Shown here piece by piece: positions 1 through 61,403 of a stretch of DNA of 64,000 bases. Position 1 is the stretch's first letter; every line of letters begins with the position of its first letter. Below the pieces are notes generated by a model. The model had not been told where the DNA came from. It did no database searches and saw nothing but the letters and a program-made list of their open reading frames with translations. The translations under genes and the position numbers were made by a program. This stretch comes from Artemia franciscana. Lineage: Eukaryota; Arthropoda; Branchiopoda; Anostraca; Artemiidae. The DNA is taken from positions 53,638,068-53,702,067 of the forward strand of contig NC_088866.1 of the NCBI RefSeq assembly GCF_032884065.1. Reading direction: 5' to 3'.

Positions 1-1672
1 TAATTTTAATTATTTATAATTTATGTAAAATTGTGATCAAAGTTATGCTCTGACAAATTACAAATCAAGGATAAAAGCGGAGTTTTTACTCATACGCTTT
101 AGAATAGTACGTCTTCTTTTAGCAATTACAGGTTTTTCAGTCAAGACTATTTGACCCTCTTTCCTTTTTTCCCCGTCCTGACGCTGCATGTGAAGCTTTT
201 TAGAGGCTAATGCAATCCATATGTGTTGCAATAACTCCTTGGATTCCAGGCATTGTAGAATGTTAAAAAAGAATGTCTTATAGTAGCTTCGTGGATGCAA
301 GACACTTGAGTGTGTTGGTGGACATTTCGAGTTTAATACCCTTTGTAAGGGTAAGTCAACCAGGTTAAGTCAGGATGGTATTTTGTAACGTTTAAGACAC
401 GTTAGCAAATTATTTTAGTGGGTATGCAGTGTTGGTGTTAGAACATTACATTCCAATAGGCTATGATCAAGGGTTTTTATTTTGTATTGCAGGATCTGCA
501 ATATAGAGATGAGGGTGTGAGTACAGTAGCATTAGGGATTTTATTAGAAAAGGGATTAGGGATTTGATTAGAGCCTGTATATTGAGGTAATTTAAGCCTT
601 CAAGGATTCGCTGGTACATTTTGGAGTGAAATTTGGCAGAAAACACAGAAATTGTATAGTACAATTTTAATGAGAATATTTTATATTTTACCTAAAAATG
701 TCGGCGATCCTTATAATTTGCAATCGGCCTCATATGTTACTGGTGCTTTACTAGAGCTATGATGTAAAAATAGCCAATTTTTGATTTTGCAGTTCGATTT
801 CAGTTTGCTACAGTCCTGGAATCATGGCTGGAAATTTGATTCTTAGGTCAGCAAAGTATAATCTTTTGGTTTACTCGCGTCAAAATTGACTATTAATATT
901 CTATTCTAGATAGTTCTAATATATTTAAGTAAAACCTTTATTTCAATCTATTCACACAATTAAACTATTAAATCAAATAAACAATCAAAAATACAATCAA
1001 GTTTAAAAAAACTTCTCATGAATATGTTATGATTCTTAAAACCACTTGTTATACACAAATTTTAGCACCAACTGACTTATTAATGACTCAATTAAAATAT
1101 CTTAGTGTCACAGATGAACTGCTATGTGCTAGCTTGCAAAGAAAGGGGAGGTAATCTGTCCTTACAAATCTGGTAATATATCTTGTTCTTCCATGAAGAT
1201 GCAGCTGTGTGAACCTGGGTTAAGCAGTTTAAACTTTGGTTTTTCCATGTAAGTGAACGTGGAACTTCAGTCACTTCTTAGCCTTCATAATCGATTTAAT
1301 GTTCGAGAGGATATGTCTATTGTGACCTTCTAATTCACTATTAATCTTTTTAATGAAGGAAACTTAGTTTCTGAGCTTCAATTTACGAATATTTCCTAAA
1401 TCCTTTGTTTTTAATCTTAAAGGAGTTTCATTGCTCGGACTTACGGCCTATAGCTTCCATGTTGTGATTACACTATTAATGTTAAGGAATCTGAGTTTTT
1501 TAATTTAAGGTATTTTATTTTTTTTAGAAACAGTAATTTAAGTTCAAGATTGGACCTAGATTAGTGAAGTAATAATTTTAAACCAATTACTGTAAATGAG
1601 AACAAAAATAAAATTCTAAAATTTGTAGATTTCAAAATTTAATTTTTCTAAATTTTTTTTCTAAAATTGGTA

Positions 1673-1756
1673 AAAAATTTGATAACAATGCTGATAGTAT
1701 GATCACTCATGCTAATAGCTATATTAAAATGAATGAGTCGGATAAGGAGAATACAC
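1673..1756 (+). pseudogene. Fragment of exon family B upstream of copy A
   Basis: This stretch translates to a short piece ending in SYIKMNESDKENT, matching the middle of family B (SYIKMKESDKENT at 3027-3377, minus strand). It stops where an intron-like T-rich tract begins that also resembles the tract before the B exons. It is therefore a B exon scrap fused to a B-type intron end directly in front of copy A. It is in frame with copy A through the intron, which is why an uninterrupted frame of 202 codons runs from 1699 to 2307; the real exon most likely starts at 1822. Confidence 0.6.
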
Positions 1757-1821
1757 TTTTGTGTTTTCTTTTTCATGTTTACTGGTTTTATTTTTTATTT
1801 TTTCAATTTTTTTTTTTTCAG

Positions 1822-2307
1822 TCAGATTCTGATTCAGATACATACAGCTACAGTGTCGATGAAATCGAGTCTGACGACCAGACATCAGACTTGCATGTAA
1901 AAACTGTCGCTGATGTGTTTGTGAGTGAAATTGTGGAAAGACTTCGTAAAAAATTTGATAACACTGCTTATAACATGATCTCTAATTCTGAGAGTTATGT
2001 TCAAATGACGGAGTCAGACAGGAAGAAAATGCCGGTGCAGCTAATGTATGCAAAAAAAAATGCAGCCATTTCCGAAGAGAAAGTCACAAGGGGAATTATT
2101 GTTTCTCCACCCCTCTCAAAAAGGGGGTCGACTCTCTCGAATCCAATCTGGGGAGCTTTCAACAAAGAGGAGTATAATAATCAAGTACATGAGGTCCTCA
2201 AAGAGATTCAGTGTAACACCGACAATTACAATCGGATAATGAAGCACGTTGGTCTCATTGGGATGGAAAGTAACAGCACACCAGCTGTGACAGCTGCAAT
2301 ATATTAG
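1822..2307 (+). CDS. Unrecognised exon, family A, open copy
   Basis: Codons 1-161 are open from a polypyrimidine tract plus AG at 1820-1821 (ttttttttcag) to TAG at 2305-2307. The start is an exon start after a splice acceptor, not an ATG. The protein begins with an acidic Ser-Asp repeat (SDSDSD), then a Tyr/Asp/Glu-rich part, a helical-looking middle (VADVFVSEIVERLRKKFDN), a basic patch with IVSPPLSKRG, and a C-terminal part with SNPIWGAF, EVLKEIQCNTDNYNRIMKHV and LIGMES. Family B shares SNPIW-AF, VSPP, SY-KM-ESD and LIGMES. I do not recognise the domain. Acidic N-terminus, basic centre and a following coiled coil would suit a nuclear protein, but that is inference. This is the only one of four copies without stops or frameshifts. 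Confidence 0.45.
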   Translation, partial: SDSDSDTYSYSVDEIESDDQTSDLHVKTVADVFVSEIVERLRKKFDNTAYNMISNSESYVQMTESDRKKMPVQLMYAKKNAAISEEKVTRGIIVSPPLSKRGSTLSNPIWGAFNKEEYNNQVHEVLKEIQCNTDNYNRIMKHVGLIGMESNSTPAVTAAIY

Positions 2308-2550
2308 AACTTGAAAAAAAAAAATAATGTTTTTTGAAATAAACAAATTGTCTGAGAAAGTCTAAGAAAGAAGCTGATTAATTGAAGTCAAGCTTAACTG
2401 AAGAAAGAATAGGTTTAAGAAGCAAATGGATAATGAAAAACGAAGATGGCAGTTGCAGATTGAAGAGGAAAAAAGAAATTAAAGAGTTCAGACAAGCATG
2501 AAGATGAGACTCCAAAGATGACAGATGAAGGAATGGAGTTGAAAAATAAG
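2308..2550 (+). pseudogene. Coiled-coil continuation of exon A, interrupted
   Basis: Directly after the TAG of copy A the sequence continues in other frames as a lysine/glutamate-rich segment (EEKNRFKKQMDNEKRRWQLQ, then EDETPKMTDEGMELKNK) ending at a good splice donor, AAG|GTATGG at 2551. The mirror copy at 8491-8734 (minus) keeps more of it open and ends at AAG|GTGTGG. The conserved donor suggests the ancestral exon ran from 1822 to 2550 and encoded the A domain followed by a charged coiled coil, now broken by frameshifts. Confidence 0.5.
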
Positions 2551-2787
2551 GTATGGTAAAAAGAACCTTCTTTGATGAAACACTTGTAGATCAAGTTATA
2601 GTCTTGCTGTTTAATTTTGTTCACTATTTTAAACATGATATATTAAAACAAGTAATAAAAAGAGATAAGGAATAATAACAGTAAGAAAAGAACTAACAAG
2701 ATTTGCAACAGTATTTTTTTGTTATAGCTGTAACAAAATCCTGTATGCATGAGAACATATTAAATTAGCATTATTATACATGCTGAA

Positions 2788-3377
2788 TTGGAAAGTTGTA
2801 ACAGGGCCTACCAAAATCTCAATTATTTTGAACGACTTTACTTGTTTTTGCTTTTGTTGAACTCCCCTTCTTCTCAATTGTTACTCTCTCTTCAGTTCTC
2901 TCTTCTTCTATCTCCCCTTCAGTTGTTACTTTCCATCCCAATGAGACTAACATGCTTCATTATCCAATTGTAATCGTCGGTGTTACACTGAATATCTTTG
3001 AGAACCTCACTTACTTCATTATTATACTATTCTTTGTCCCTAAAAGCTTCCCAGATGGGATTTGAGGGAGTCAACCCCATTTTAAAGGAGGGAGGAGAAA
3101 CAATCTTTCTACTTGTGACTTTCACTTTGGTAGTTGCTGCACTGTGTTTGTCACAAAATAGCCGCACTGACGTATTCTCCTTATCCGACTCTTTCATTTT
3201 AATATAACTATCAGCATGAGTGATCATGCCATCAGCTGTGTTATCAATTGTTTTACGAAGTTTTGAAATAATCTCACAAGCAAACACATCACCAACAGTT
3301 TTTACACCAGAATGGTTGTCAGAATCAATTTCGTCGATACCGTAGCTTGTAACCATTGTATCTGAATCAGAATCACC
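2788..3377 (-). pseudogene. Exon family B, left-arm copy
   Basis: On the minus strand a splice acceptor (TTTTAG|GGTGATT) at 3378-3380 opens a frame that runs to a stop at 3027. Its order matches copy A: acidic start, VGDVFACEIISKLRK, SYIKMKESDKENT, IVSPPSFKMG, SNPIWEAF. After the stop, homology continues in another frame (EVLKDIQCNTDDYN, then LIGMES) down to about 2790, so a frameshift lies near 3027. It is convergent with copy A in the same arm. Function unknown. Confidence 0.6.
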
Positions 3378-3550
3378 CTAAAAATAAAAAACGAAAACAT
3401 TAAAAAAAATTAAAAAGGAAAACCTGTAAACATAAAAAAGAAAACACAAAAGCAGGTTTTTCAGCCAGTTTTCCAGAAAAAAAAAATTCCAGAAATTTCA
3501 ACAATGAAACAAATTTCAGCAATACAAAATTCGTGTTCATTGCTGGTTCT

Positions 3551-6261
3551 GAAATCCTTTTCAGGATTATTATCCTTTCTGAAAGAGTTGAAGCTATAGT
3601 TTAGTAATGGCAACGCATCAACCCATTACTTTTCTTTACTTTGTATGGACTTGGTCAAAATGGCTCCTGAATAATTAAAAAAAATGACATCAGCCAATGT
3701 TCAGATGACAATTCGATTTTAAATTGTGTCTACCATTTTTTCCACGGGAGATAACCTATTTGAAGCTCGCCACAATAAGGCAAACAGCTACAATTTCTTT
3801 GCCTTCGGACGCGATCAAATGTTGACACTACACCTGACGGGTTTTGAGTTTACATATTCTGCTTGTGGCAGAATATGGAACACAATCATCCAAAAAGTAT
3901 TTAGGTTAGCTAGCTTTATTTTTTCTTCAAAAAAACACAAAAGTTGGTTTACCAGCAGCAATCATTAAATAAATTGTTTAGAAACTGAATTGACAAAAGC
4001 CATATAGCAGTCAGCTTAGAAATTAAAGAAATTTTGCTGGTTTTTATCTTATGGTACCAATCATCTAAAGTATCCAAACAAAATCTCAAAATCAAGTGCA
4101 GTGTCAACTTAAAAAAAAAACTCACCAGAAATGTAAAACAGATATTTATTACCTCTTGGTTTCTGGGAATTTTTCTGCTCTGTGCTGTTATTATAAAAGT
4201 TAAGCATAACATTCAACCCCAAAATGAGTAGAATTTATTCTGTACAGGAGTGGGACAGCACCTTCCTCATCTCCACCCTAACCCTATAACCCTAGCCTCT
4301 AACCCTGTAGCCCTCTGCCCAGTAACCCTAATCCTGTTTGTTGTAATTTCTGTTCGTTTTTAAGTTGACCTTCTTATTCATTTTAGTTTTGACTTGTTTT
4401 AGATTTTGTTTCTAGTCTGTTTACTTGTTTTTAGTTTCTTTTTAAGAAATAAAATTCACCGTTTTAGAAATAAAGTCTGACGAAGCTAAAAAAAAAAAAA
4501 AAATAAATAAATAAAAAACTAACTAGTTTAACATTCACATTATTAAAACTTCTCTTTAAGGTTCTGTACTCCCCAAAATTCAGACAAATTTTATGAAAGT
4601 GAGCTACTGCCTCATTAGTCACGCTAAAAAATTTAATTACTTAAAAACTGAAATCATTTTTTAAGTGTCATAGGGAAGATTTGGTCCCATAAAGGACAAG
4701 ATTGACAGCAAAAAACTTTTCAAAACTTGTGATTTTGGAATTGAAATTTTGGACATGTTTGCTACATTTGTTCCACTTTAGGGAAGATTGGAGGCTACTA
4801 AATAATGCCCAGTGTGCCTCTAGGGGCACTGGAGGAACTAAGGTCTAAGGTTGCTTTATTTGATATTTTGTCTGGGAAAATATTCCCATTTAAGGTAAAA
4901 GTACTAAGACTCCACCAAAGAAATGGGCCCCTAGCATAAATAGTGCTCAGCAACTATGATCCTCAACAAGCAGTATGTATTCTCACTAAAACAGTTCTAA
5001 ATCACTTCTGGCTAATTTAAATTTCATCCCTTCAGAAAAAAAAGCTGCAAAACTAGTAAAATTAAATCCAAGCCTTGCAGATTATTGTTACGTGTTACTA
5101 ATTTTATTTTTTCCTAGTTTTTGAGTTGTTTTATGTTTTCTCGTACTATGATTTTTAAACCCTTGAAAAGTTTTGATCTTTTCCAAATTGAGACAATCTG
5201 AAAAAAAATTTCAGATGTTTTGGAAATGTTGCCTATTATTTCATACATCTTCACTAGTTTGTCGAACTTTCCAAATGATTGTTAACTTTACAAAGAACGC
5301 AAACTTTCCAAAGATGTAGAATGAAAAATTCTGTTGGGTTCAAACTGCACATGCATGGATGCGGGTCTAAGTGAAAAATCAGTTTCTGTAAAATTCAACT
5401 AAACAATACTTGTAAACTGTAGCTGGTATAGGAAAATGTAAAGTTATTACTCATTTGTCTAGATTACCCTAGTCAAGGTAAAAAGAAAAGAAAAACCCAC
5501 CCTCTAAACTTAGACTGAAATTTGTAATTTCATCTGTCCAGAGTAAAAATGCTTTATTTTTAATAATAATAAAAAAAAAAAAAACAAGGCTTAAGCCATA
5601 GCAGATTGAGGTTTTCAGCATTCCACATTTCAATCAGACTTTTAAAAAAAGCTTCAGCTAGGGGAGAATAATATCTTAGGCTTCAATAATATCATGGCTT
5701 GCTTAAACCTATCTAGTTTATTTTTCAAGATGTTGAAATATCTGCTTGTGTTTCTTATGGTATTCTACATAGGCTGCTTCTCAGATGTTTTTGGATTCGT
5801 TTTGTCCAGTGCAAGATAAGCAGATGCGTGAGAGGAGGAACAGTAATCTTAAAATTCCAAAGGTGGCTACCACTCAATCACATCTGACTTTTGGCAATAC
5901 CAATCTTAGAGCATGGCCATCTTACATTTTAGGGCTAGAAAGAAAGAAATTTGTGCACGTTCTACAGATGAAGGATGACAGATTGATAAAGACTACTAAT
6001 TTTTGCCATCTATCAGGGGTAAAACAAAAAGCAAGTTGTGAATGGAATGGGACAGATCATAGGGAAGGATTCAGGGTTGTATCCAGGATTATTTTTCAGG
6101 GGGAGGGGTACAAAAGGATCTTTTTCTGGGTGTCTTGCAAAAAGACCTTCATAAATCATATAAAAAAGTTATATTCATTTTTTTACGTTTTTATGTGTCA
6201 GACAAACATTTCGGTAGGGGAGGGGTGCCAACTCCCACCTGAATACGGCCTTTGAAGGATC
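3551..6261. other. Spacer of the inverted repeat, left part; no gene seen
   Basis: AT-rich sequence with A-runs (for example 4489-4503 and 5570-5584). A 156-codon open frame at 5785-6255 has no recognisable motif, and its second half overlaps G-rich interspersed sequence, so I do not call it a gene. A 45-codon frame starting with ATG at 4806 is also unsupported. Confidence 0.6.
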
Positions 6262-6390
6262 TAAAGGAAATGTAAGCTTCTTGGGTTAGGGTAAAGAGTA
6301 AAGCCTTGAAAATGTTGGGTTGGGGGAGAGCATACAATATTTGTGGCCTGATGTGGCTTGGTACTGCAGTGATTTTTATTAGTGGTATTA
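6262..6390 (+). pseudogene. LINE ORF2 C-terminal scrap
   Basis: Translation gives ALKMLGWGRAYNICGLMWLG followed by TAVIFI. It aligns with the scrap at 34250-34455 (ALNRLGWKRTELSRVGLMWL) and, in reverse, with 6935-7130 (ALNRLKWRRSVHGCVGLRRI). This W-x-x-V-x-x-x-AL-x-R-L-x-W ending with a GLxxLGA motif is familiar as the last residues of reverse-transcriptase ORFs of several LINEs. Only the last ~40 codons remain, with one stop. Confidence 0.6.
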
Positions 6391-6787
6391 GCTATAATTT
6401 ACTCAATCAAAAGTCGCAAAATGTAAAGCCATTAGTAATGGAAAATGATTGTAAACCTTGTCCTTTGAATTGTATTTTAATTGTTAAAACAGCACAAAAA
6501 ACGTTTACCCTTGATGGAAATAATTTTTTTGAAAGTTGATTAAATGTATTAGCTTGTTCCATTAAGAACAAGCTAAACTAGGGAATGGGTGCCAAGGAGC
6601 TATTTATCGCTAATGGAACCTCCACTATCTCCTGTTTTCTGATACAATCGATGGTACTTGTTAATTAAATGAAACACACTCAAGGATTATGCTTAGGTTA
6701 GATTACAAAAAACCGGTTTCATAACTACAAAGACAAGTGACGGGTGATGCAATATATTGGACTTAGACAGAATGCTTTGGACTTGAA

Positions 6788-6905
6788 CAATTTGGGCTAT
6801 ATATTTAACACTAGAGGGTGGGGAAGGGGGGTTAGGTTAGTGGCGCTGTTCAAATAATTTTATCCCTCCCCCTTAATGTTCAAATATATAGCCCAAATTG
6901 TAGTA
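6788..6905. repeat. Imperfect hairpin, ~40-bp arms
   Basis: 'acaatttgggctatatattt' at about 6790 recurs as its reverse complement at about 6885-6902, and the G-rich inner parts also pair roughly. Related 'ggctatatatttg' phrases occur at about 38060 and 40670, so this is probably a foldback remnant of a dispersed family. Confidence 0.6.
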
Positions 6906-6934
6906 TTACATAAACTATAGGTTATATGAAGGTT

Positions 6935-7130
6935 ATGTTTCATCAGGATTAGCGCCAATCTGTCTCACTGTAGCACCAATCCGTCTAAGGCCAACACAGC
7001 CATGCACACTTCTCCTCCATTTCAATCTATTCAAAGCCTTCCTCTCTACGCCTTGCCAATAAGTTCCAATTTCACTTAAATCTAACCTTACGAACTTCCC
7101 CACCGCATTTGGGAACAACCTGCTTTTTAT
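6935..7130 (-). pseudogene. LINE ORF2 C-terminal scrap, minus strand
   Basis: Open for 61 codons: KFVRLDLSEIGTYWQGVERK followed by ALNRLKWRRSVHGCVGLRRI. It is the same protein end as at 6262-6390 and 34250-34455, in the opposite orientation. Only the 3' end of the element is present, as expected for a 5'-truncated LINE. Confidence 0.65.
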
Positions 7131-7434
7131 TTGATCCTTGATGGTTGGTTAACAAGGACAATCCTAGACAGATATCTGACTTTGTTGAGATACATACTAT
7201 TCACTAAAAAGGCTGTAGGCCCTTAGCCATGGTGCACCCTCCCCCTCCTCCCAACAGTAGCTTTCAATGCTAGAGAAAACAGATTATGTCTTTAATTTAA
7301 ATTGTCTATTTTAATTTTGAAACTGCCATAAAAGCCAAAAAATTATTTAATCCAGCAATGAATAGGAATTTTTCATTCTTGAAATTTGTTTCACAAAGTA
7401 AAAGAAAAACCAGAAGCCAGTGAAACCAGTTTTT
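7131..7434. other. Spacer end, nothing recognised
   Basis: AT-rich sequence between the LINE scrap and the inner border of the right arm. No coding or structured element seen. Confidence 0.5.
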
Positions 7435-7605
7435 GTAAAACCAGCAATGAACTCGAATTTTGTATTGCTGAAATTTGTTTCATTGCTGAAATTTCTGGAA
7501 TTTTTTTCTGGAAAACTGGCTGAAAAACCAGCTTTTGTGTTTTCTTTTTTATGTTTATAGGTTTTCTTTTTTATTTTTTTTAATGTTTTTCTTTTTTATT
7601 TTCAG

Positions 7606-8030
7606 GGTGATTCTGCTTCAGATACAATGGTTACAAGCTATGGTATCAATGAAATTGATTCTGACAACCATTCTGTTGGTGATGTGTTTGCTTGTGAAAT
7701 TATTTAAAAACTTCATAAAACAATTGATAATGCTGCTGATAGCATGATCACTCATGCTGATAGTTATATTAAAATGAAAGAGTTGGATAAGGAGAATACG
7801 TCAGTGCAGCTATTTTGTGACAAACACAGTGCAGCAACTACCAAAGTGAAAGTCACAAGCGGAAAGATTGTTTCTCCTCCCTCCTTTAAAAGGGGGTTGA
7901 CTTCCTCAAATCCCATCTGGGAAGCTTTCAAGGACAAAGAATAGTATAATAAAGTGAGGTTCTTAAAGAGATTCAGTGTAACACCGACAATTACAATTGG
8001 ATAATGAAGCATGTTAGTCTCATTAGGATG
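7606..8030 (+). pseudogene. Exon family B, right-arm copy
   Basis: Acceptor TTTTCAG at 7601-7605 precedes GGTGATTCTG. The frame reads SDTMVTSYGINEIDSDNHS, then VGDVFACEII, a TAA at 7705-7707, and goes on to SYIKMKELDKENTSVQLFCD, IVSPPSFKRG, SNPIWEAFKDKE and a stop at 7942-7944. Compared with the left copy it lacks four residues after NHS (GVKT in the left copy). The tail (IQCNTD region) is out of frame, as in the left copy, so that frameshift predates the inversion-duplication. Confidence 0.6.
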
Positions 8031-8490
8031 GAAAATAACAACTGAAGGGGAGATAGAAGAAGATAGAACTAAAGAGAGAGTAACAATTGAGAAGAAGGGG
8101 AGTTTGACAAAAGCAAAAACATGTAAAGTTGTTCAAAATAATTGAGATTTTGGTAGGCCCTGTTACAACTTTCCAATTCAGCATGTATAATAATGCTAAT
8201 TTAATATGTTCTCATGCATACAGGATTTTGTTACAGCTATAACAAAAAATTACTGTTGCAAATCTTGCTAGTTCTTTTCTTACTGTTATTATTCCTTATC
8301 TCTATTTATTATTTGTTTTAATATATGATGTTTAAAATTGTGAACAAAATTAAACAGCAAGACTATAACTTGATCTACAAGTGTTTCATCAAAGAACGTT
8401 CTTCTTTGAGCTCACTAGAGTTCAAGCGCTAATTATTTTTTTTTGAGTAATTCCCCACTTATATTCAAAAAAGTGTTCTTTTTACCACAC

Positions 8491-9223
8491 CTTATTTTTC
8501 AACTCCATTCCTTCATCTGTCATCTTTGGAGTCTCATCTTCATGCTTGTCTGAACTCTTTAATTTTATTTTTTCCTCTTCAATCTGCAACTGCCATCTTC
8601 GTTTTTCATTATCCATTTGCTTCTTAAACCTATTCTTTTCTTCAGTTAAGCTTGACTTCAATTAATCAGCTTCTTTCTTAGACTTTCTCAGACAATTTGT
8701 TTATTTCCAAAAACATTAATTTTTTTTTCAAGTTCTAATGTATTGCAGTTGTCACAGCTGGTGTGCTGTTACTTTCCATCCCAATGAGACCAACATGCTT
8801 CATTATCCGATTGTAATTGTCGGTGTTACACTGAATCTCTTTGAGGACCTCATGTACTTGATTATTATACTGCTCTTTGTTGAAAGCTCCCCAGATTGGA
8901 TTCGAGAGAGTTGACCCCCTTTTTGAGAGGGGTGGAGAAACAATAATTCCCCTTGTGACTTTCTCTTCGGAAATGGCTGCATTTTTTTTTTTACATACAT
9001 TAGCTGCACTGGCATTTTCTTCCTATCTGACTCTTCCATTTGAACATAGCTCTCAGAATTAGAGATGATGTTTTAAGCACTGTTATCATATTTTTTACAA
9101 AGTCTTTCCACAATTTCACTCACAAACACATCAGCGACAGTTTTTACATGCAAGTCTGATGTCTGGTCGTCAGACTCGATTTCATCGACACTGTAGCTTG
9201 TATGTATCTGAATCAGAATTCAA
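8491..9223 (-). pseudogene. Exon family A, right-arm copy with coiled coil
   Basis: Acceptor TTTTTTCAG at 9224-9226 opens the exon. An A-run of 11 here, against 9 in the left copy (2052-2060), causes a frameshift after QLMYVKK. The A part ends at a stop (8735-8737) and the coiled-coil part follows to the donor AAG|GTGTGG at 8491, reading EEKNRFKKQMDNEKRRWQLQ and KSSDKHEDETPKM. Same architecture as 1822-2550. Confidence 0.55.
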
Positions 9224-10938
9224 CTGAAAAAATAAATTCATATAAATTCATATAATAGAAACCAGTAAACATGAAAAAGAAAACACAAAGTGTATTCTCC
9301 TTATCCGACTCATTCATTTTAATATAGAGTGATCATACTATCAGCAGTGTTATCAAATTTTTTACCAATTTAAAAAATTTAGAAAAATTAAATTTTAAAA
9401 TCTAAAATTTTAGAATTGTATTTTTGTCCTCATTTGCAGTAATTGGTTTAAAATTATTACTTCACTAATCTAGGTCCAATCTTGAACTTAAATTACTGTT
9501 TCTAAGAAAAACTAAAATCCGTAAAATTAAAAAACTCAGATTCCTTAATATTAATAGCGTAATCATAATATGGAAGCTATAGGCCATAAGTCTCAGCAAT
9601 GAAACTCCTTTAAACTTAAAAACAAAGGATGCAGGAAATATTCAGGAAATATTCGGAAACATTCGAAGGAAATATTCATGAAGTACAGAAACTAAATTTC
9701 CTTCATTAAAAAGATTAATAGAGAATTAGAAGGTCACAATAGACATATCCTCTTGAACATTAAATCAATTATGAAGGCTAAGAAGTGACTGAAGTTCTAT
9801 GTTCACTTACATGGAAAAACCAAAGTTTGCACTGCTTAACCCAGGTTCACACAGCTGCATCTTCATGGAAGAACAAGATATATTACCAGATTTGTAAGGA
9901 CAGATTACCTCCCCTTTCTTTGCAAGCTAGCACATAGCAGTTCATCTGTGACACTAAGATATTTTAATTGAGTCATTAATAAGTCAGTTGGTGCTAAAAT
10001 TTGTGTATAACAAGTGGTTTTAAGAATCATGACATATTCATGAGAAGTTTTTTTAAACTTGATTGTATTTTTGATTGTTTATTTGATTTATTAGTTTAAT
10101 TGTGTGAATAGATTGAAATAAAGTGTTACTTAAATATGTTAGAACTATCTAAATAGAATATTAATAGTCAATTTTGACACAAGTAAACCAAAAGATTATA
10201 CTTTGCTGACCTAAGAATCAAATTTCCAGCCATGATTCCAGGACTGTAGCAAACTGAATATTCTCCAAAATGAAGATTCTTTTTCATTGGGTGACACAAA
10301 ATCAAACTGCAAAATCAAAAGTTGGCTATTTTAACATCATAGCTCTAGTAAAGCACCAGTAACATATGACGCCAATTGTGAATTATAAGGATCGCCAACA
10401 TTTTAGATAAAATAGAAAATATTCTCATTAAAATTGTGCAATACAATTTCTGTGTTTTCTGCCAAATATCACTTCAAAATGTACCAGAGAATCCTTGAAG
10501 GCCTAAGTATCCTCAATATACAGGCTCTAATCAAATCCCTAATCTCTTCTCTAATACAATCCCTAATGCTACTGTACTCACATCCTCATCTCTATACTGC
10601 AGATCCTGCAATACAAAATAAAAACCCTTGATCATAGCCTATTGGAATGTAATGTTATAACTCCAACACTGCATACCCACTAAAATAATTTGCTAAAGTG
10701 TCTTAAACATTACAAAATACCACCCTGACTTAACCTAGTTGACCTAACCCTAACAAAGGGCATTAAACTTGAAATGTACACCAACATACTCCAGTGTTGT
10801 ACATCCACGGAGCTACTATAAGACATTCTTCTTTAACATTCTATAATGCCAGAAACCCAAGGAGTTATTGCAACACATATGGATTTCAGTAGTCTCTAAA
10901 AAGCTTCACATGCAGCATCAGGACAGGGAAAAAAGACT

Positions 10939-11042
10939 TTCCTGGGACACACTTTAGCCTCTAGACCCATCCCTGAAAGTTTCATTTTCCTAACCTAAAC
11001 CCTTTCTGAGATAGCAAGAAGTCAATTAACTAGAATTTTACC
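10939..11042 (-). mobile_element. MITE end, truncated copy
   Basis: The last ~100 bp match one TIR of the 626-bp MITE (35573-36198) and end in GAATTTTACC. The flank 'aaaaacagataac' is the same target flank as at the full copy 51179-51800 (reverse), so both derive from one insertion that was later duplicated. The rest of the MITE is missing at the inverted-repeat border. Confidence 0.7.
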
Positions 11043-11560
11043 AAAAACAGATAACTGTCTATTTTGCTCCAGTTTAATATTTATCAGACCAACTTCATTT
11101 TTACTTGTAAAAAGCAAAGTTATTTCTCTAAAGGATATATTCACTCTAACCAATGTCAGCAGGCCTCTCCCTTTTCTCCCTTCTCTATCCCCATCTTACA
11201 GGATGAAAACCTACAAATTTTGTTTTCTTTTCACTGGTTAGAAGAGTCTCCTGAAGGAGGACCAAGTAAGGTTTTGCTGTTACTATTAATGTATTTCTTA
11301 AAGCAGTTTTAGTTTTTCCTATTCCTTATGTGTTTAGTTGCAAGACCTTCAGGATTTACTGATGTGCTTCCCCTTTTTTAAATATTTACCTTTGTCTGGT
11401 GAGGTCTCTTTACCAGGTGATGTACAAGCTCTTTTTGTCATAATTATCTTACTTTGATCCTTTTCTGCCCCATTATTTCTTAGAAATATTCTAGTTGACC
11501 AACTTCATTTAGGGTAAAGCAACCGGTACTGGGACACTTTGTTCACTCTTCACACTTTTT
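11043..11560 (+). repeat. Duplicated flank, inverted copy at 50690-51178
   Basis: Continuous similarity by eye to the reverse complement of 50690-51178, including the pyrimidine-rich block 'ccccatcttacaggatgaaa' and 'gaccaacttcatttagg'. It further joins to sequence seen at about 36715. No coding frame of note; the 82-codon frame at 11064-11312 has no recognisable motif. Confidence 0.75.
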
Positions 11561-11935: not shown

Positions 11936-14035
11936 AAAATAAATTAGATTGGTTTAAAAAGGAAAATAAGAGGCTTAATGCCGGTCAGGATTTAAAATAA
12001 GAGCTCTGAGTCACGATGTCCTTCTAAATATCAAAATTCATTAAGATCCGATCACCCACTCGTAAGTTATAAATACCTAATTTTTTCTAATTTTTCCTCT
12101 CCCTTTAGCCCCCCAGATGGTCGAATCTGGGAAAACGACTATCAAGTCAAATTGTGCAGCTCCCTGACACGCCTACTAATTTTAATCGTCCTAGCACGTC
12201 CAGAAGCACCAAACTCGCCAAATCACTGAACTCCTACCCCCAACTCCCCCAAAGAGAGCGAATCCAGTACGATTCTGTCAATCACGTATCAAGGACATTT
12301 GTGTATTCTATCCACAAAGCTTCATCCCGATTCCTACACTCCAAGTGTTTTTCCAAGATTTCCCCCTCCAACTCCCCCCAATGTCAAACGATCTGGTCGG
12401 TATTTGAAATAAGAGCTCTGAGACATGAATTCTTTCTAAAAATCAATTTCATTAAGATCCGATCATCTATTCGTAAGATAAAAATACCCCATTTTTTTAC
12501 GTTTTCCAAGAATTCCGGTTTCCCCCTCCAACTCCCCCCAACGTCACAGGATCTGGTCGAATTTAAAATAAGAACTTTAAAGCACAAGATCCTTCTAAAT
12601 ATCAAATTTCATTAAGATCTGGTCACCCTTTCGTAAGTTACAAATACCTCAATTTTCAAAATTACCCCCCCCCCTCCAATTCCACCAAAGAGAGCAGATT
12701 CGGTCCGGTTATGTCAGTCACGTATCTTAGACAGGTTTTTAATCTTCCCATCCAGTTTCATCCTGATCTCACCGCTTTAAGTATTTTCTAAGATTTCCGA
12801 CCCCCCCCCCCAACTGCCCCCCCCCCCAATTACGCTTGATCCGGTTGAGATTTAAAATTAGAGATCTGAGTTACGAGGTCCTTCTAAATATGAAGTTTCA
12901 TGAAGATCCGATCACTCCTTCGTAAGTTAAAAATACGTCATTTTTTCTTATTTTTCAGAATTAACCCCCCCCCCCAATAGATCGGATCCGTTTCAATTAC
13001 GTTAATCACGTATGTAAGACTTCTGCTTATTTTTCCCACCATGTTTCATCCCGATCCCTCCAATCTAAGCGTTTTCCATGATTTTAGGTTCCCCCTCCCC
13101 AAACTTCCCCCAACGTCACCAGATCCAGTCAGGATTTAAAATAAGAGCTTTGAGACACGATACCCTTCTAAATATCAAATTTCATTGAGATCCGATAACC
13201 CGTTCGTAAGTTAAAAATACCTCATTTTTCTAATTTTTCAGAATTAACCCCTCCCCCAACTACCCCAAAGAGAGCGGATCCGTTCCGGTTATGCCAATCA
13301 TGTATCTAGGACTCGTGATTATTTTTTCCACCAAGTTTCATCCCGATCCCTCCACTCTAAGTGTTTTTCAAGTTTTAGGTTCCCCCCTCCCAACTCCCCC
13401 CCCCAATGTCACCAGATCTGGTCGGGTTTAAAATAAGAGCTCTGAGCCACGATATCCTTCTAAATATCAAATTTCATTGAGATCCGATCACCCGTTCGTA
13501 AGTTAAAAATACTTCATTTTTCTAATTTTTCAGAAACCCCTCCCCCCCCCAACAATCCCAAAGAGAGCGGATCCGTTCCGTTTATGTCAATCATGTATCT
13601 GGGACTTGTGCATATTTTTTCCATCAAGTTTCATCCCGATCCCTCCACTCTAAGTGTTTTCCAAGATTTTAGGTTTCCCCCCTCCAACTCCCCCCAATGT
13701 CATCAGATCCTGTCGGGATTGAAATTAAGAGCTCTGAGACACAATATCATTCCAAACATCAAATTTCATTAAGATCCCATCACCCACTTCATAAGTTAAA
13801 AATACTTCATTTTTTCCGAATTAACCGGCCCCCCACTCCCCCCCCCAGATGGTCAAATTGGGAAAATGACAATTTCTAATTTAAGCTGGTCCCGTCTCTG
13901 ATACGCCTGCCAAATTTCATCGTCCTAGCTTACCTGGAAGTGCCTAAAGTAGCAAAACCGGGACCAACAGACCGACAGACAGACAGACCGATTGGCGATT
14001 GCTATATGTCGCTTGGTTAATACCAAGTGCCATAA
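11936..14035 (+). mobile_element. Minisatellite-bearing element M, copy 1
   Basis: About seven degenerate units of ~285-297 bp, each with 'gatccgatcacccgttcgta', a C-run, 'aagagagcggatccg', 'gtttcatcccgatccctcc' and 'taaaataagagctctgag'. It ends with a (CAGA)n tract, 'ttgctatatgtcgcttgg' and the hairpin CTTGGT-TAAT-ACCAAG followed by TGCCATA. The other end is truncated relative to copies 2 and 3. Pairing of TATGGCACTTG (5' side in copy 3) with CAAGTGCCATA (3' side) gives subterminal inverted repeats. A minisatellite core, subterminal inverted repeats and a terminal hairpin recall non-autonomous Helentron/DINE elements; the class is inference. Confidence 0.65.
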
Positions 14036-15065
14036 AAAGATTGTTTTCAGTTGCTAGCCAGCAAAACAAATGAATTTATAATGAGATCTATACTAGATAG
14101 AATTAACGGAAATGACAACGAGCTATTGTTACAGTTTCATTTCAAGAAGTAAATTCCGTCTACGATGACTTAGATAAACTTGCGAAGAAAGAAATACCCG
14201 CAATTTAAAGGGAACCTCGACAATCATGCGTCGTAGGTAGGTAGTAGAAATGGTCTAAAGTGCTAAAGAGCTCGGCCTTGATTTTAATGTTTTATGATGA
14301 ACAGAGGAGGTGATATGTCATATAATGCAGAGCTTTAATTGGATGAAAATAGGCAGTAAAGTGGTCACCATTTCCTCACAAAAATCCAAAACTTAAATTA
14401 ATAATTTTTGTACTTCTCATACATTTACTTTCTATTATATAAATCCCTTAAAAAACAACTAGGCTCTGTTGTAAAAGCCACCCCTCTTCGCAAAAAAAGC
14501 AAACTCAACACAGACTACCAAAAAGTAATGATAGGCCTATCAATTTCTTTGCCTCAGTGCCATAGCAAGACTCGAAAAAAAATTTCTGACAGTAAAAAGA
14601 AGTAAATAATTAGCTTTTCAGTCCTGTTGCGACAGCACAATCCTGAAATATGATTTTGACAGCCTAAAAAAGTTAGGATTTTAAATTTATCCTCCTTGCT
14701 ATTACGAAATGAAGATTTTCGCCTCGCAGTTGGGTTTTGCGGTAATACGGTCAGATTCCATTGACAAACCTAAATTTAATTAAATACTTTTTGACGGTAT
14801 ACGTTACTATACATTAGTAAAATTTAAAAAAAGACCATACAAATTGACTAATATCTTGTTTCAAACTTGTTTGCAAAAAGAAACAGTCTTAATATTGGCA
14901 AATTTATGAAAAGCTCAACTATTAAAAATCAATTACAAAAAAAAATCACTTTCGTCCAGATCCAAACCAGAGCAAGCAGTCCCAACCACAAATCCAACAC
15001 CATGTGATGGGGGGTGCACCCCCGCGCCCTCCTTGGATCCGCCCCTGTTCAGATTGAAAGATGTA
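14036..15065 (+). repeat. Interspersed repeat E, long copy without MITE
   Basis: Runs from 'agattgttttcagttgctag' to 'ggatccgcccctgttcagat'. The reverse complement appears at 34905-36430 with a 626-bp MITE inside, so this copy serves as the empty site for that MITE (around 14397-14412). No coding capacity seen. Confidence 0.8.
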
Positions 15066-15668
15066 TCTCTCATTTGAAGACTGAGCCGCTTTGAGGCGAA
15101 TTATTATTTTATTTTATTTCTGAACATTTTTGAATTAATGCATGTTTTGATTTTGGCTCTCCGCACATGAATAATTAGAACAAAATTTGGATATTCATTT
15201 ATATTTTTGGCTAAATGGTTTTCTCATAGTTTTGATTGGACGATTTTGAGAAGAAAGGAGCTGGGGAGTAGACCTAGTTACCCTCCAGTTTCTTGGTCAA
15301 ACAGTTCGTGGTAACGAACTGTAGTAAGGAGCGACCCGGCTCAATAGTAACCAAAACTCTAAAAAACGGAATTTTGATACCAATAGTAACATCAAAAGAA
15401 TCGCAATCTAATGCTGATTTTAAATATATAGGTTTCATCAAGTTTAGTCTAACCCATCAAAAGTTAAGAGCCTGAGAAAATCAACCCTATTTTAGAAAAT
15501 AGGGCGAAACACACCCTCAAAGTCATAGAATCTTAATGAAAATCACACCATCAGATTCAGCGTATCAGAGAACCCTGCTGTACAAGTTCCAAGATCCTAT
15601 CTACAAAAATGTGGAATTTTGTATTTTTTGCCAGAAGACAAATCACGGATGCGTGTTTATTTGTTTGT
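15066..15668 (+). repeat. Interspersed repeat R, 5' part, interrupted
   Basis: The segment ending 'gcgtgtttatttgtttg' normally continues into 'ttccaggggtgatcgtatcg', as seen uninterrupted at 63765-64000 (+) and 23480-23760 (-). Here element M copy 2 sits between the two halves (15669-18732). Confidence 0.75.
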
Positions 15669-18600
15669 TTTTATGGGCACTTGGTATTAACCAACTGACA
15701 TATAGCAATCGCCAATTCTGTCGGTCTGTCTGTCTGTCTGTCGGTCCCGGTTTTGCTACTTTAGGCACTTCCAGAAAAGCTAGGACGATGAAATTTGGCA
15801 GGCGTATCAGGGACGGGACCAGCTTAAATTAGAAATAGTCGTCTTCCCAATTTGACCATCTGGGGGGGGCGGTTAATTCGGAAAAATAGAAGTATTTTTA
15901 ACTTACGAACTGTTGATCAGATCTTAATGAAATTTGATGTTTGGAAGGATATCGTGTCTCAGAGCTGTTATTATAAAACCCGACCAGATCTGGTGACATT
16001 GGGGGGGATATGGGATGGGGAAACCTAAAATCTTGGAAAACAATTAGAGTGGAGGGATCAGGATGAAACTTGGTGGGAAAAATAAGCACAAGTTCTAGAT
16101 ACATGATTGATATAACCGGAACGGATTCGCTCTCTTTAGGGTGGTTGGGGGGGGGGGTAATTCTGAAAAATTAAAAAAGAGAGATTTTTAACTTACAAAC
16201 GGGTGATCGGATCTCAATGAAAATTGATATTTAGAAGGATATGGTGTCTTAGAGCTCTTATTTTAAATCCAGACCAGATCTGGTGACATTGGGGGGAGGG
16301 AGTTGGGAGGGGGAAACCTAAAACTTGGAATAAGCTTAGAGTCGAGGGATCGGGATGAAACTTGGTGGGAATATTAAGCACAAGTCCTAGATACATGACT
16401 GACATAACCAGAACGGATCCGCTCTCTTTGGGGTAGTTGGGGGGGGGGATAATTCTGAAAAATTAGAAAAAATGAGGTATTTTTAACTTACGAACGAGTG
16501 ATCCGATCTCAATGAAATTTGATATTTAGAAGGAAATCGTGTCTCAGAGCTCTTATTTTAAATCCCGACCGGATCTGGTGACATTTGGGGGGATTTGGGA
16601 GGGGGAAACCTAAAACTTGGAAAACACTTATAGTGGAGGGATCGGGATGAAACTTGGTGGGAAAAATAAGCACAAGTCCTAGACACATAATTGACATAAC
16701 CGGAACGGATCTGCTCTTTTTTAGGGAGTTGGGGGGTTAGAAATAGTCGTTTTCCCGATTTGACCATCTGGGGGGGGGAGTGGGGGGCCAGTTAATTCGG
16801 AAAAATTAGAAAAATTGAAGTATTTTTAACTTACGAACTGTTGATCATATCTTAATGAAATTTGATGTTTGGAAGGGTATCGTGTCTCAGAGCTGTTATT
16901 TTACATCCCGACCAGATCTGGTGACATTGGGGGGAGATATGGGAGGGGGAAACCTAAAATCTTGGAAAAGACTTAGAGTGAAGGGATCGGGATGAAACTT
17001 GGTGGGAAAAACAAGCACAAGTCCTAGATACATGATTGAACCGGAACGGATCCACTCTCTTTGGGGTTGTTGGAGTGGGGGGGGGGGGTAATTCTGAAAA
17101 ATTAAAAAATGAGGAATTTTTAACTTACGAACGGGTGATCGGATATCAATGAAATTTGATATTTAGAAGGATATGGTGTCTTAGAGCTGTTATTTTAAAT
17201 CCCGACCAGATCTGGTGACATTGGGGGGGGGAGTTGGGAGGGGGAAACCTAAAACTTGGAAAAACCTTAGAGTGAAGGGATCGGGATGAAACTTGGTGGA
17301 AAAAATAATCACGAGTCCTAGATACATGATTGACAGAACTGGAACGGATCCGCTCTCTTTGGGGTAGTCGGGGGAGGGGTTAATTCTGAAAAATTAGAAA
17401 AAATGAGGTATTTTTAACTTGCGAACGGTTGATCGCATCTCAATGAAATTTGATATTTAGAAGGATATCGTGTCTCAAAGCTCTTATTTTAAATCCTGAC
17501 CGGATCTGGTGACATTGGAGGAAGGTTTTGGGTGGGGATTCTAAAATCATGGAAAACGCTTAAATTGGAGGGATCGGGATGAAACTTGGTGGGAAAAATA
17601 AGAGCAGAAGTCTTACATACGTCATTTACATAATTGGAATGGATCCGCTCTATTGGGGGGGGGGGGGGGTTAATTCTGAAAAATGAGAAAAAAATGACGT
17701 ATTTTTAACTTACGGAGTGATCGGATCTTCATGAAACTTCATATTTAGAAGGACCTCGTAACTCAGATCTCTTATTTTAAATCTCTACCGGATCAAGCGT
17801 AATTGGGGGGGGGGGGCGTTGGGGGGACCGGAAATCTTAGAAAATACTTAAAGCGGTGAGATCAGGATAAAACTGGATGGGAAGATTAGAATCCTGTCTA
17901 AGATACGTGACTGACATAACCAGACCGGATCTGCTCTCTTTGGTGGAATTGGGGGGGGGGGGGTAATTTTGAAAATTGAGGTATTTGTAACTTACGAAAG
18001 GGTGGCCAGATCTTAATGAAATTTGATATTTAGAAGGATCTTGTGCTTTAAAGTTCTAATTTTAAATTCCTACCAGATCCTGTGACATTGGGGGGAGTTG
18101 GAGGGGGAAATCAGAATTCTTTTTTTGAAATTTGATTTTTAGAAGGAATTCATGTCTCAGAGCTCTTATTTCAAATCCCAACCAGATCTTTTGACATTGG
18201 GGGGAGTAGGAGGGGGAAATCTTGGAAAAACACTTGGAGTGGAGGAATCGGGATGAAGCTTGGTGGATAGAATAAACAAATGTTCTTGATACGTGATTGA
18301 CAGAATCGTACTGAATACGCTCTCTTTGGGGAAATTGGGGGGAGGGGTTCAGTGATCTGGCGAGTTTGGTGCTTCTGGAGGTGCTAGGACGATTAAAATT
18401 AGTAGGCGTGTCAGGGAGCTGCACAGTTTGACTTGATAAAGTCATTTTCCCAGATTCGACCATCTGGGGGGCTAAAGGGAGAGGAAAAATTAGAAAAAAT
18501 TAGGTATTTATAACTTACGAGTGGGTGATCGGATCTTAATGAATTTTGATATTTAGAAGGACATCGTGACTCAGAGCTCTTATTTTAAATCCTGACCGGC

Positions 18601-18732
18601 ATTAAGCCTCTTATTCTCCTTTTTAAATCAATCTATTGATTCATAGAATTTTGTTAGAGCTCATACCATATGATCTCTTGGCTCTTAGCTCTTCTCGCCT
18701 CGTCACAAGTGCCATATGAGCTCTTAGCTCTT
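15669..18732 (-). mobile_element. Element M, copy 2, inserted in repeat R/G
   Basis: About nine ~290-bp units in minus orientation (G-runs on the plus strand). It starts with GGCACTTGGTATTAACCAA and a (GTCT)n tract and ends with 'cacaagtgccatatgagctc' and 'ttagctcttg'. Both termini are present. The flanks are T-rich ('tttgtttgttttt' left, 'tttttttgttgttg' right), and two uninterrupted copies of the target exist in this window. Insertion in a T-run fits Helentron-type integration; no transposase or Rep/helicase is encoded. Confidence 0.7.
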
Positions 18733-50412: not shown

Positions 50413-51178
50413 CAAGTCTAGGGCGTTATACGGTACTTTTTCTTCCGAAGCATTGGCAAGACTGATCATTAAATGGTTGAAGAAACAGAAGTACAGAAAT
50501 AGAGCTAGATGTTCACAGGAAAGGAAAGCCAAAAAATTACATCTAAAGGAAGTGTGAGTAATTTTTTAGAGACTAGCAAAAGCCATGCCGAGGCTAATTT
50601 CTTTAGATTAGCCTAGTAATGAGGGCTTGATTATTCATTCAAAGCTTACTAATAGCCTATGTGTCAGAAAACAGGAAAAACAAAATTTTACTAGCATCCT
50701 AGATGAAGTTGGTCAACTAGAATATTTCTAAGAAATAATGGGGCAGAAAAGGATCAAAGTAAGATAATTATGACAAAAAGAGCTTGTACATCACCTGGTA
50801 AAGAGACCTCACTAGACAAAGGTAAACATTTAAAAAAGGGGAAGCATATCAATAAATCCTGAAGGTCTTGCAACTAAACACACAAGGAATAGGAAAAACT
50901 AAAACTGCTTTAAGAAATACATTATTAGTAACAGCAAAACCTTACTTGGTCCTCCTTCAGGAGACTCTTCTAACCAGTGAAAAGAAAACAAAATTTGTAG
51001 GTTTTCATCCTGTAAGATGGGGATAGAGAAGAGAAAAAAGGGAGAGGCCTGCTGAAATTGGTTAGAGTGAATATATCCTTTAGAGAAATAACTTTGCCCT
51101 TTACAAGTAAAAATAAAGTTGGTCTGATAAATATTTAGCTTGAGGAAAATAGATGGTTATCTGTTTTTGGTAAAATTC
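50413..51178. repeat. Inverted copy of 36715-36941, 42388-42490 and 11043-11545
   Basis: Without the 5.4-kb TIR element this copy reads straight through the 'ggctttcct' site (50520-50540, reverse), and from 50690 it matches the reverse of 11043-11545. It links three separate places in the window. Confidence 0.75.
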
Positions 51179-51800
51179 TAGTTAATCAACTTTTTGCTAT
51201 ATTGGAAAGGGTGTAGGCTTGGAAAATAAAACTTTCAGGGATAGATCTACAAAATAAAGTATGTCCCAGGAAGGTATTTTGAACTACCCTCATCCTCTCC
51301 TTCTCCCTCCAGAGGGCCCTGAAATTTGCCTATGACAGTCTAAAGGCTATCTGTCAAAATTTTGACAAAACAACATTTTACCTTAATTTTCAGTTACTAG
51401 TTGCTTTTTCTCTGCCTTTAGTTGTGAAAATGCAATTCCTGTTATTTGGGTAGAATTCTGAGCCATGTCAATGTTTTTTTTTTTTTTTCAAAATTTAGGA
51501 AATGTATTTGCATATCTTTAAGACCTCATAAAATGGAATTGAGCAGTTATGAAGCTGAAAGCAATTTAGTTGTACTTCAATTCAGCAGAAGATCTATTTT
51601 GCAAGGTTTCACTTTTATAACACTAATTTTTAAAGGTCATCAAAGGTAAGGGCCCTCTAGAGGGAGAAGGAGTAGAGGTAGTTGCTTCAAAATACCTTCC
51701 TGGGACATACTTGAGTCTGTAGATTCATCCCCAAAAGTTTCATTTTCCTAACCTAAGCCCTTTCTGAGATAGCAAGAAGTCAATTAACTATAATTTTACC
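51179..51800. mobile_element. Full-length MITE, second copy
   Basis: 622 bp, GGTAAAATTCTAGTTAATCA to CAATTAACTATAATTTTACC. Flanks 'tctgtttt' at 51170-51177 (plus one t) and 51801-51808. Interior matches 35573-36198. Confidence 0.8.
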
Positions 51801-58849: not shown

Positions 58850-59190
58850 CCTATTCCATTAAAACCTTATATGTTAACTATAAGAAACTTGCATAACTTA
58901 CAACCCTTGCCCCCAGGCTATGGGGAGTTCTGTCAACCCTGGAAGCATAGTTTTATGACCTTTGTACTATTTTGAGCCAAATAGATATCTCAAATTTAAT
59001 CAGATATATTTGGGGAAAAGAGGGCAAGGGGGTCTAGTTGCCTTCCAATCTCTTTTGACTCTTAAAAAACGCACTACAACTTCCAATGTCCAATCAAATG
59101 AGTGTCCTCCAAAGTCTATACAACCACCCCCTCCATAAAAACTGAAAATAGACAATAAGTAATAAAACATTAAAGCCTTATGGCTTTTTA
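58850..59190 (-). repeat. Satellite S, right of LINE
   Basis: Continues the array: 'atatgttaactataagaaac', 'cttttgactcttaaaaaacg', 'caaccaccccctccataaaa'. One unit and a bit. Confidence 0.8.
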
Positions 59191-59824: not shown

Positions 59825-61395
59825 TTAAATACCGATAGTAATCCGTCTTGACCCTCTTACCTCACCTTTATTCGAAAGCATAAAAAAAACAGCACAAAAT
59901 AACACAGAATGGTCACAGAAACTCGAGCACAGCTTTGTAAGTGCTTGTCGCCGGAAATGTCCACAATTTCCAACAATTTTAGAATACCCCAGTTTAAGCT
60001 TAAATTGAATATCCCTAATCATCTGAAAACGAAAAGAACTTAAAGAATTGCAAACAGAAATCCCAAGCCATCGAAAATTAGTAACTTGTGGTACGGAAAA
60101 AGAAATGCAATCCAAAGGATGAGACGAACTAACCCCATTAAATATAAGAAATTAACATTTATGTACATTTAGCAATAATCCAATTCTTGCAAATGCATCA
60201 GCAACGGATCGGATAGAACGCGCTAAACCGGTCTCAGTTCGGCTAATAAGAAGCAAGTCGTCAGCATAAGCCAAGTATGATACGTCTGTGAATCCTGTAA
60301 AACAAGAACTACGTATACCAGACAAAACATTTTCAATGGAAGCATTAAAGATATGAGGAGAGAGAACTCCTCCCTGTCTCACTCCACACTTGACTGGTAT
60401 ATGTCCGAAAAAATCACCATTTCCTGACTTTAATCTTGAATAAGAATTTGAATACCAAAACTTCAAAACCAGAATCACAGACGCATTCACACCAAGCTGA
60501 CTAAGAGCATACCAAGCCTGAGCATGGCAAACACTATCGAATGCTCTAGATATATCAAGGGTGCAAAAATAAAGACTATAACTATTCCGGGTGGCTTCCT
60601 TAATAAGCTGCGCTAAAACAAGATGAGCATGTTGGCAGCTCAGACCTGACCGGAAGCCGAACTGGTTAGCCTCATAATTAACAAATTCATCGATATGTGG
60701 GAGTAGAACATACTCAAATAATTTACTTAGAGTACAGGCGACGGTAATTGGCCTGTACAAATTACACGAATTTAGATCTTTTCCTTTCTTTAATATAGTA
60801 GTAACACTTCCACATAAAAATGAATCAGGAACAATAAACCTTGAAAGGCACATGTGAAATAATAACTGAAGATGCGACAGGAGTTCAGCTGACCTCGGAT
60901 CAAGATGAGCGGCACAAATACCATCAAGGTCACAAGACTTTGACTTTGACCGTCAAAGAGATTTCACAATATTAGCTTTATCAACAGGCATAACATGTCT
61001 TTGGCTCACACTATTAGGAAGAACTTCGCCACTAAAGCAGTAAAACGGCTATGAACATCATAATTAATAGCGGAAAAGATGCGCGTATAATGTTTAATCC
61101 ACGAAAATCTTGGAATAATATCACTAGAAGAAGATTCTTTGAGTTTTGGCACATTCAGAACATTTTGCCACTGTTTACCATTTGTCGGAAATTCAGCGCC
61201 CGAAAACCGATCTGTACGAAGATGACGCTTATAAACTGATTTTGTTCTCTGCTTGATGCTAAAAAGTTTACCTCTTGAAGGTCTACCGGAAGCAATCCAC
61301 ATTTTCAACCAAAACTTGGCTTGATTCTTCACTGTCTTAAGTTCCAGATCACACTTCCAAAAGGTCTTACGGGTGTTAAGTCGCACGCGAGTCAA
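59825..61395 (-). pseudogene. ORF2 linker, reverse transcriptase and C-terminal part
   Basis: Linker at 61395-61006 (TRVRLNTRKTFWKC, then KNQAKFWLKMWIASGRPSRG); after a frameshift LDGICAAHLDPRSAELLSHL and the RT frame (60853-60152): LNSCNLYRPITVACTLSKLF, NQFGFRSGLSCQHAHLVLAQ, LDISRAFDSV (motif A), CGVRQGGVLSPHIFN (motif B) and LAYADDLLLIS (motif C). YADD is intact. One TAA after NVHKC separates the last part (60115-59825), which opens LDCISFSVPQVTNFRWLGIS. The VRQGGVLSP plus AYADD combination differs from the LINE at 56107-58849, so they are separate families. Confidence 0.85.
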
Positions 61396-61403
61396 CGGAA
61401 CAG

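Follow-up and report, generated by a model that had tools for sequence, protein, structure and literature searches.

A nested palindrome on an Artemia franciscana chromosome very probably consists of damaged SAS-4/CPAP-type exon copies

What is a nested palindrome that carries four copies of a spliced exon, and where did the exon come from? We address this question for a 64,000-nucleotide (nt) stretch of the Artemia franciscana genome (assembly GCF_032884065.1, contig NC_088866.1, here C4:53638068-53702067), referred to below as the window. An initial annotation, made from the letters of the window, described two mirrored arms of ~3.4 kb, each holding an exon copy of a family A that faces a diverged copy of a family B. 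Our analysis indicates that the palindrome very probably is a local inverted segmental duplication of damaged SAS-4/CPAP-type exon copies together with their flanks. The presumed parent gene lies upstream on the same contig. Genome searches were carried out on the 1,270,528,402-bp assembly (6468 contigs), and the match counts that they yielded are lower bounds.

Self-comparison of the window by blastn corroborated the described architecture. The arms form an inverted repeat far above chance, in which positions 164-2575 pair with 10935-8465 (91.1% identity over 2495 columns) and 2558-3548 with 8406-7439 (93.0% over 991 columns). The left arm measures 3385 bp, the right arm 3497 bp and the spacer between them 3890 bp (Table 1). 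In each arm the A and B copies are mutually inverted and 74 to 78% identical; the left-arm pair aligns 1756-2275 with 3452-2924 over 538 columns at 77.7%. The annotated splice-like signals also are present: a T-rich tract and an AG precede all four exon copies (exon starts at 1822, 3377, 7606 and 9223), and a GT follows both A copies, within GTATGG after 2550 in the left arm and GTGTGG on the minus strand after 8491 in the right arm. An extra exon fragment of ~90 nt lies upstream of each A copy (1663-1754 and 9292-9371).

The exon has close relatives on the same contig. Used as DNA, the A exon (509 bases) gave at least 16 genome matches, of which 15 are on C4 and one, a short fragment, is on C7. 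Used as protein, the intact exon of one of these loci, L017, gave at least 26 matching pieces, of which C4 has 25 and C7 one. Complete absence of a similar protein, which the initial annotation had named as grounds for rejection, is therefore not what was found. At three loci (L017, L018 and L020) the exon is intact, comprising 741 nt (247 codons) in phase 0/0 with an AG acceptor and an AAG/GTATGT donor. A fourth related exon, L019, has a 2-nt insertion. L018, L019 and L020 are 92 to 98% alike over long aligned blocks, and some of them may be haplotype copies; near a related locus, L061, there is a 100-N gap.

On its own, the exon had no Pfam match at cutoff and no match to the Protein Data Bank (PDB) below 0.28, and a comparison of the intact exon with viral contigs returned 12 pattern-matching stretches, none of them a relative. 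The identity of the gene is suggested by what follows the exon. Downstream at L017 are a second exon and two exons resembling a G-box. The second G-box exon matched Pfam Tcp10_C (PF07202) at 9.3e-14 (51.2 bits, above cutoff), and the first at 8.7e-8 (32.1 bits, under the 36-bit cutoff). When the two were joined, 5 of the 12 PDB matches were Sas-4/CPAP chains (1.6e-28 to 3.5e-25); the other seven, six Cake proteins and one PQQ protein, were at 1e-8 or weaker. Exon A, exon 2 and the first G-box exon occur on one strand and in the same order at L017 and L018 (plus) and at L020 (minus), in compatible phases, and the upstream exon was judged by eye to be coiled coil. The second G-box exon is present at L017 and L020, with none matched downstream of L018; at L019, exon A is present and no exon 2 match was found downstream. 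In a further minus-strand set (55175990, 55171855 and 55155762), exon 2 and G-box matches are present and nothing upstream of them matched exon A. Across C4:54935825-55176145 there are several SAS-4-type gene pieces, nearly identical and lying in either orientation; some have incomplete exon sets, and they possibly are misplaced haplotype contigs.

The parent thus appears to be a SAS-4/CPAP-type centriole gene, as judged from its domain content and exon order. It is like known SAS-4/CPAP (CENPJ) genes in having G-box/TCP10_C exons that match Sas-4/CPAP structures, with exons before them that look by eye like coiled coil, whereas the window has damaged copies of one upstream exon only and no G-box. 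CPAP is required for centriole assembly, and its TCP domain is reported to recognise STIL (PMC3776556). None of the leading titles returned by a literature search dealt with SAS-4 in Artemia or with SAS-4 pseudogenes there. The description of A and B as a family without a recognisable domain holds for the exon itself; its parent carries a G-box of a known type.

The arms also contain non-exon flank of the parent gene. Segment X, the outer part of each arm, matches over 219-1657 the flank upstream of the intact exon at L018 and L020, with pieces upstream of L017. Window 1-53, just outside the left arm, matches L018/L020, and on its inner side the right arm is colinear with L017. The junction between A and segment D is ~58 bp shorter in the left arm. 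Parts of the spacer (within 3567-5314) are a dispersed repeat with matches on C2, C11 and C17; from 5311 the spacer is parent-gene flank (L017, L018 and L020), with another dispersed repeat at ~6651-6954. Segment X and the spacer showed coding signal over short stretches only. Measured from the parent gene, the nearer assembled copy of the palindrome is 18 kb away and that of the window 53 kb. The initial annotation is thus borne out in part, in that a host-gene exon was copied with its splice signals by inverted duplication.

One of the two origins first proposed, capture of the exon by a mobile inverted-repeat element, would account for the long inverted arms and for the full-length copies of segment X (80%) on C6 and on another four contigs, namely C760, C4364, C4802 and C5757, and it could draw on the dispersed repeats found next to the right outer end and 18 bp away from the left inner end. 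We consider it extremely unlikely, however, given that the exon matches, although lower-bound counts, are on C4 (15 of 16 as DNA, 25 of 26 as protein) except for the one C7 fragment, and that the arms contain flanks of the parent. By-eye inspection at 164 and 10935 revealed no target-site duplication. Dispersed arms with cargo, as in Foldback or long inverted-repeat transposons, were not found in the genome search with its lower-bound counts; segment X does occur elsewhere.

None of the four window copies equals the intact exon. A second assembled copy of the palindrome lies 35 kb upstream, and its counterparts (uA_L, uA_R, uB_L and uB_R) were scored for lesions along with those of the window, with L018 as reference. 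Common to the four assembled A copies are deletions of 5 nt (at position 22), 3 nt, 10 nt and 1 nt (at 519), an insertion of 9 nt, and stops in register at codons 177 and 190. A_R has an additional 2-nt insertion and, like its counterpart, a stop at codon 49. In three of the four the frame is lost from about codon 8 onward. The remaining one, A_L, is open for 161 codons (to 2304), as had been annotated. This frame is accidental, because it hangs on a single extra base deleted just past the 5-nt deletion, which offsets that deletion and restores the frame in A_L alone; uA_L does not have it and is out of frame. Beyond the 161 codons A_L contains the 10-nt deletion, more frameshifts, and the stops at reference codons 177 and 190. 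In all four assembled B copies the exon is lost past about codon 150 and runs into segment D. B_L is open for 116 codons and then has a TAG at reference codon 117, which B_R and uB_R also have; the latter two also contain a TAA at codon 38, plus deletions (12 and 7 nt in B_R). In A the coiled-coil part has lost its frame or contains stops, and B does not have it. Neither exon 2 (at least 4 genome matches) nor the G-box (at least 7) had a match in or near the window.

These lesions bear on the suggestion that a functional gene family is expanding by inverted duplication, with A or B encoding a short spliced protein. The kept splice-like signals, the open frames of A_L, B_L and uB_L (161, 116 and ~150 codons), and arm-to-arm ratios of nonsynonymous to synonymous change (dN/dS) nominally below 1 all would fit such a family. 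Against these stand the loss of frame in three of four assembled A copies, the fate of the coiled-coil part, the TAG in three of four B copies, and the lack of an exon 2 match nearby, and we regard a functional family as highly improbable. The lesions common to both A copies and the 3' loss common to the B copies predate the arm duplication, so that what was duplicated was already damaged, and no intact copy exists in the window.

In order to assess selection, dN/dS was estimated by a counting method for 19 pairs, with Fisher P values; codons with stops or gaps were removed before counting, which favours low values for pseudogenes. The intact exon groups are under purifying selection (L017 versus L018, 0.37, P = 1.6e-4; L017 versus L020, 0.34, P = 8e-5). 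Differences inside the L018-L020 group are few (0.75, 0.41 and 0.24), and pairs between the two assembled palindrome copies have 0 to 4 changes. A value near 1 between A copies or between A and B was also among the grounds for rejection named in the initial annotation: A versus B gave 0.72 (P = 0.23) and 0.86 (P = 0.53), not significantly below 1, and A_L versus A_R gave 0.50 (P = 0.23).

Several observations weigh against the interpretation of the palindrome as damaged copies of a SAS-4/CPAP-type exon. The A_L/A_R value just given is nominally below 1, as is that of B_L versus B_R (0.44, P = 0.10). Comparisons of the window copies with intact exons likewise gave low values: A_L with L017 (0.56, P = 0.012) and L018 (0.54, P = 0.007), B_L with L017 (0.51, P = 0.035) and L018 (0.62, P = 0.079), A_R with L017 (0.64, P = 0.051), and B_R with L017 (0.51, P = 0.062). 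These window-versus-intact values can be explained by the functional parent branch. One exon copy, uB_L, reads TGG at codon 117, and the ~150 codons that it retains are free of in-register stops and indels. Finally, the likely membership of exon A in the G-box gene is based on the order and strand of the exons, their phases, and the repetition of this arrangement at three loci.

The second copy of the palindrome also speaks to the quality of the assembly. Window positions 1-20080 recur at C4:53603044-53623281 with 97.5 to 98.6% identity. The duplicated unit is ~35 kb long (the pair spans C4:53588264-53658147) and comprises window 1-20080 plus the preceding 14.7 kb, which recur 35 kb upstream at 96.8 to 98.6% in pieces. 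A gap of 100 N occupies 53623285-53623384, between the end of copy 1 at 53623281 and the start of copy 2 at 53623385; the alignment stops 3 bases short of this gap and resumes right behind it. Between the copies, the left arm differs by 2.0% (outer part) and 0.6% (inner part), and the right arm by 0.1% and 0.0%. A gap between copies is given in PMC9516828 as a mark of false duplication, and the false heterotype duplications treated there are like this case in being near-identical copies (35 kb here) separated by an assembly gap. In a female A. franciscana assembly, 15 of 255 BUSCOs (5.9%) are reported to be duplicated, along with two-copy k-mers (PMC11492255). The 35-kb pair probably represents two haplotypes placed end to end. 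A biological tandem duplication is disfavoured by the gap at the junction, even if it could still apply.

A region with a gap and a probable false duplication raises the question of whether the palindrome itself is an assembly or library fold-back artefact, as the initial annotation had allowed. This explanation is close to negligible. The same palindrome occurs in two separately assembled contigs, which gives it independent support, with up to 2% difference between the two left arms. Within one copy, moreover, the arms are ~5% apart and have their own indels, which would be unexpected from a fold-back read.

The order of events was examined with an unrooted exon tree (450 nt, 12 sequences). 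L017, A and B were placed apart from L018-L020 (support 100), and A was grouped with B (82). Three exon copies were paired with their counterparts in the other assembled copy (A_R/uA_R, 99; B_L/uB_L, 100; B_R/uB_R, 99); the tree did not resolve A_L with uA_L (59). The arms within one assembled copy differ by 4.8 to 6.0%, whereas the same arm differs by 0 to 2.0% between assembled copies; the arms therefore are older than the assembled pair, with no homogenisation under way. Recent gene conversion from arm to arm is disfavoured by the same comparison.

We propose that a segment of the parent gene was duplicated, and that exon copies A and B decayed, A through frameshifts and stops and B through loss of the coiled-coil part, and came to face each other. 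Copying of the A+B block in inverted orientation then very probably produced the 3.4-kb arms around a 3.9-kb spacer of parent flank and dispersed repeat. Either break repair or template switching, acting on a locus that had already been duplicated, could have given rise to the inversions. The intact exon is the source of the splice-like signals, and the palindrome probably yields no product today. In its disabling lesions (frameshifts and stops), its copied intron and flank, its local position, and the presence of an intact parent in the genome, the locus resembles duplicated (non-processed) pseudogenes, with uB_L open over its kept part; it differs from them in the arrangement of the window copies as a nested palindrome.

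An inverted repeat of this kind also could act through RNA. If the palindrome were transcribed through both arms, long double-stranded RNA might be processed to small interfering RNAs (siRNAs) that trim SAS-4 messages. In Drosophila, hairpin RNA (hpRNA) loci arise beside the progenitor gene from an inverted exon fragment, according to PMC10317233; the window palindrome is similarly an inverted exon-fragment repeat close to its progenitor, like D. simulans hp58, and its arms have exon homology to the would-be target gene. Of the ~3361 21-mers of the left arm, about 1235 occur without mismatch in both arms, and the longest perfect run reaches 200 nt. However, exon 21-mers that are perfect in both arms match the candidate targets at few positions (12 of 721 for L017, 2 of 721 for L018 and 9 of 721 for L020), in which the palindrome, seen here as DNA sequence alone, differs from the Drosophila loci; the arms have drifted by ~5%, and the 3.9-kb spacer carries dispersed repeats. 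We judge such silencing very unlikely. The same goes for the more specific idea of an active hairpin-RNA gene whose siRNAs would dampen SAS-4/CPAP paralogs in the germ line of this ZW crustacean.

Table 1. Features of the palindrome (window positions) and of the related gene loci (C4 positions)
Feature	Position	Strand	Remark
Left palindrome arm	164..3548	+	91-93% identical to reverse complement of 7439-10935
Outer arm segment X (left)	164..1657	+	
A copy, left arm (A_L)	1822..2550	+	GTATGG donor-like site after
Segment D (left)	2558..2874	-	Matches L018 7849-8203, between intact exon A and exon 2
B copy, left arm (B_L)	2922..3377	-	Then segment D
Spacer	3549..7438	+	Dispersed repeat and parent-gene flank
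Right palindrome arm	7439..10935	-	Self-comparison
B copy, right arm (B_R)	7606..8042	+	Inner side colinear with L017 flank
Segment D (right)	8090..8422	+	
A copy, right arm (A_R)	8491..9223	-	GTGTGG donor-like site
Outer arm segment X (right)	9367..10880	-	
Intact exon L017	starts C4:53558838	+	
Exon 2 of L017 locus	C4:53568298-53568453	+	156 nt, phase 0
First G-box exon, L017 locus	~C4:53575356-53575784	+	
Second G-box exon, L017 locus	within ~C4:53584820-53585140	+	
Intact exon L020	starts C4:54968373	-	
Intact exon L018	starts C4:55045331	+	

Other repeats and reading frames were noted in the window, and an Rfam search covering all of it gave nothing at the gathering threshold. An open frame of 103 amino acids (58-369, minus strand) crosses the outer end of the left arm; a search with 64 of the 103 residues gave at least 16 matches, full length only in the two assembled palindrome copies, the short partial ones being on C4, C6, C20 and four other contigs. 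A repeat at 10931-11513 starts at the right outer end of the palindrome; an inverted copy of it (93%) lies at 50698-51280, and nine further places in the window contain shorter pieces. Beside the palindrome is a second inverted structure (11945-18635) with tandem arrays of a ~292-bp repeat in opposite orientations; its arms pair 12140-12449 with 18129-18438 (94%) and 11945-12140 with 18440-18635 (98%). Minus-strand open frames at 56496-58850 and 60152-62258 resemble, by eye, reverse transcriptase and endonuclease parts of non-long-terminal-repeat retroelements.

Taken as damaged copies of a SAS-4/CPAP-type exon, what appeared to be a new exon family becomes a set of decayed pieces of a centriole gene of known type, and the palindrome is an ordinary pseudogene rearrangement unless silencing RNA is made from it. 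The analysis also suggests that one A. franciscana chromosome carries two groups of SAS-4-type genes, one of them perhaps inflated by haplotype copies, and it marks a 35-kb unit of the assembly as a probable false duplication. A palindrome that is transcribed would offer a testable case, outside the insects, of a hairpin-RNA gene that begins next to its progenitor, and, were the hairpin interpretation true, endogenous RNA interference would be directed at a centriole gene.

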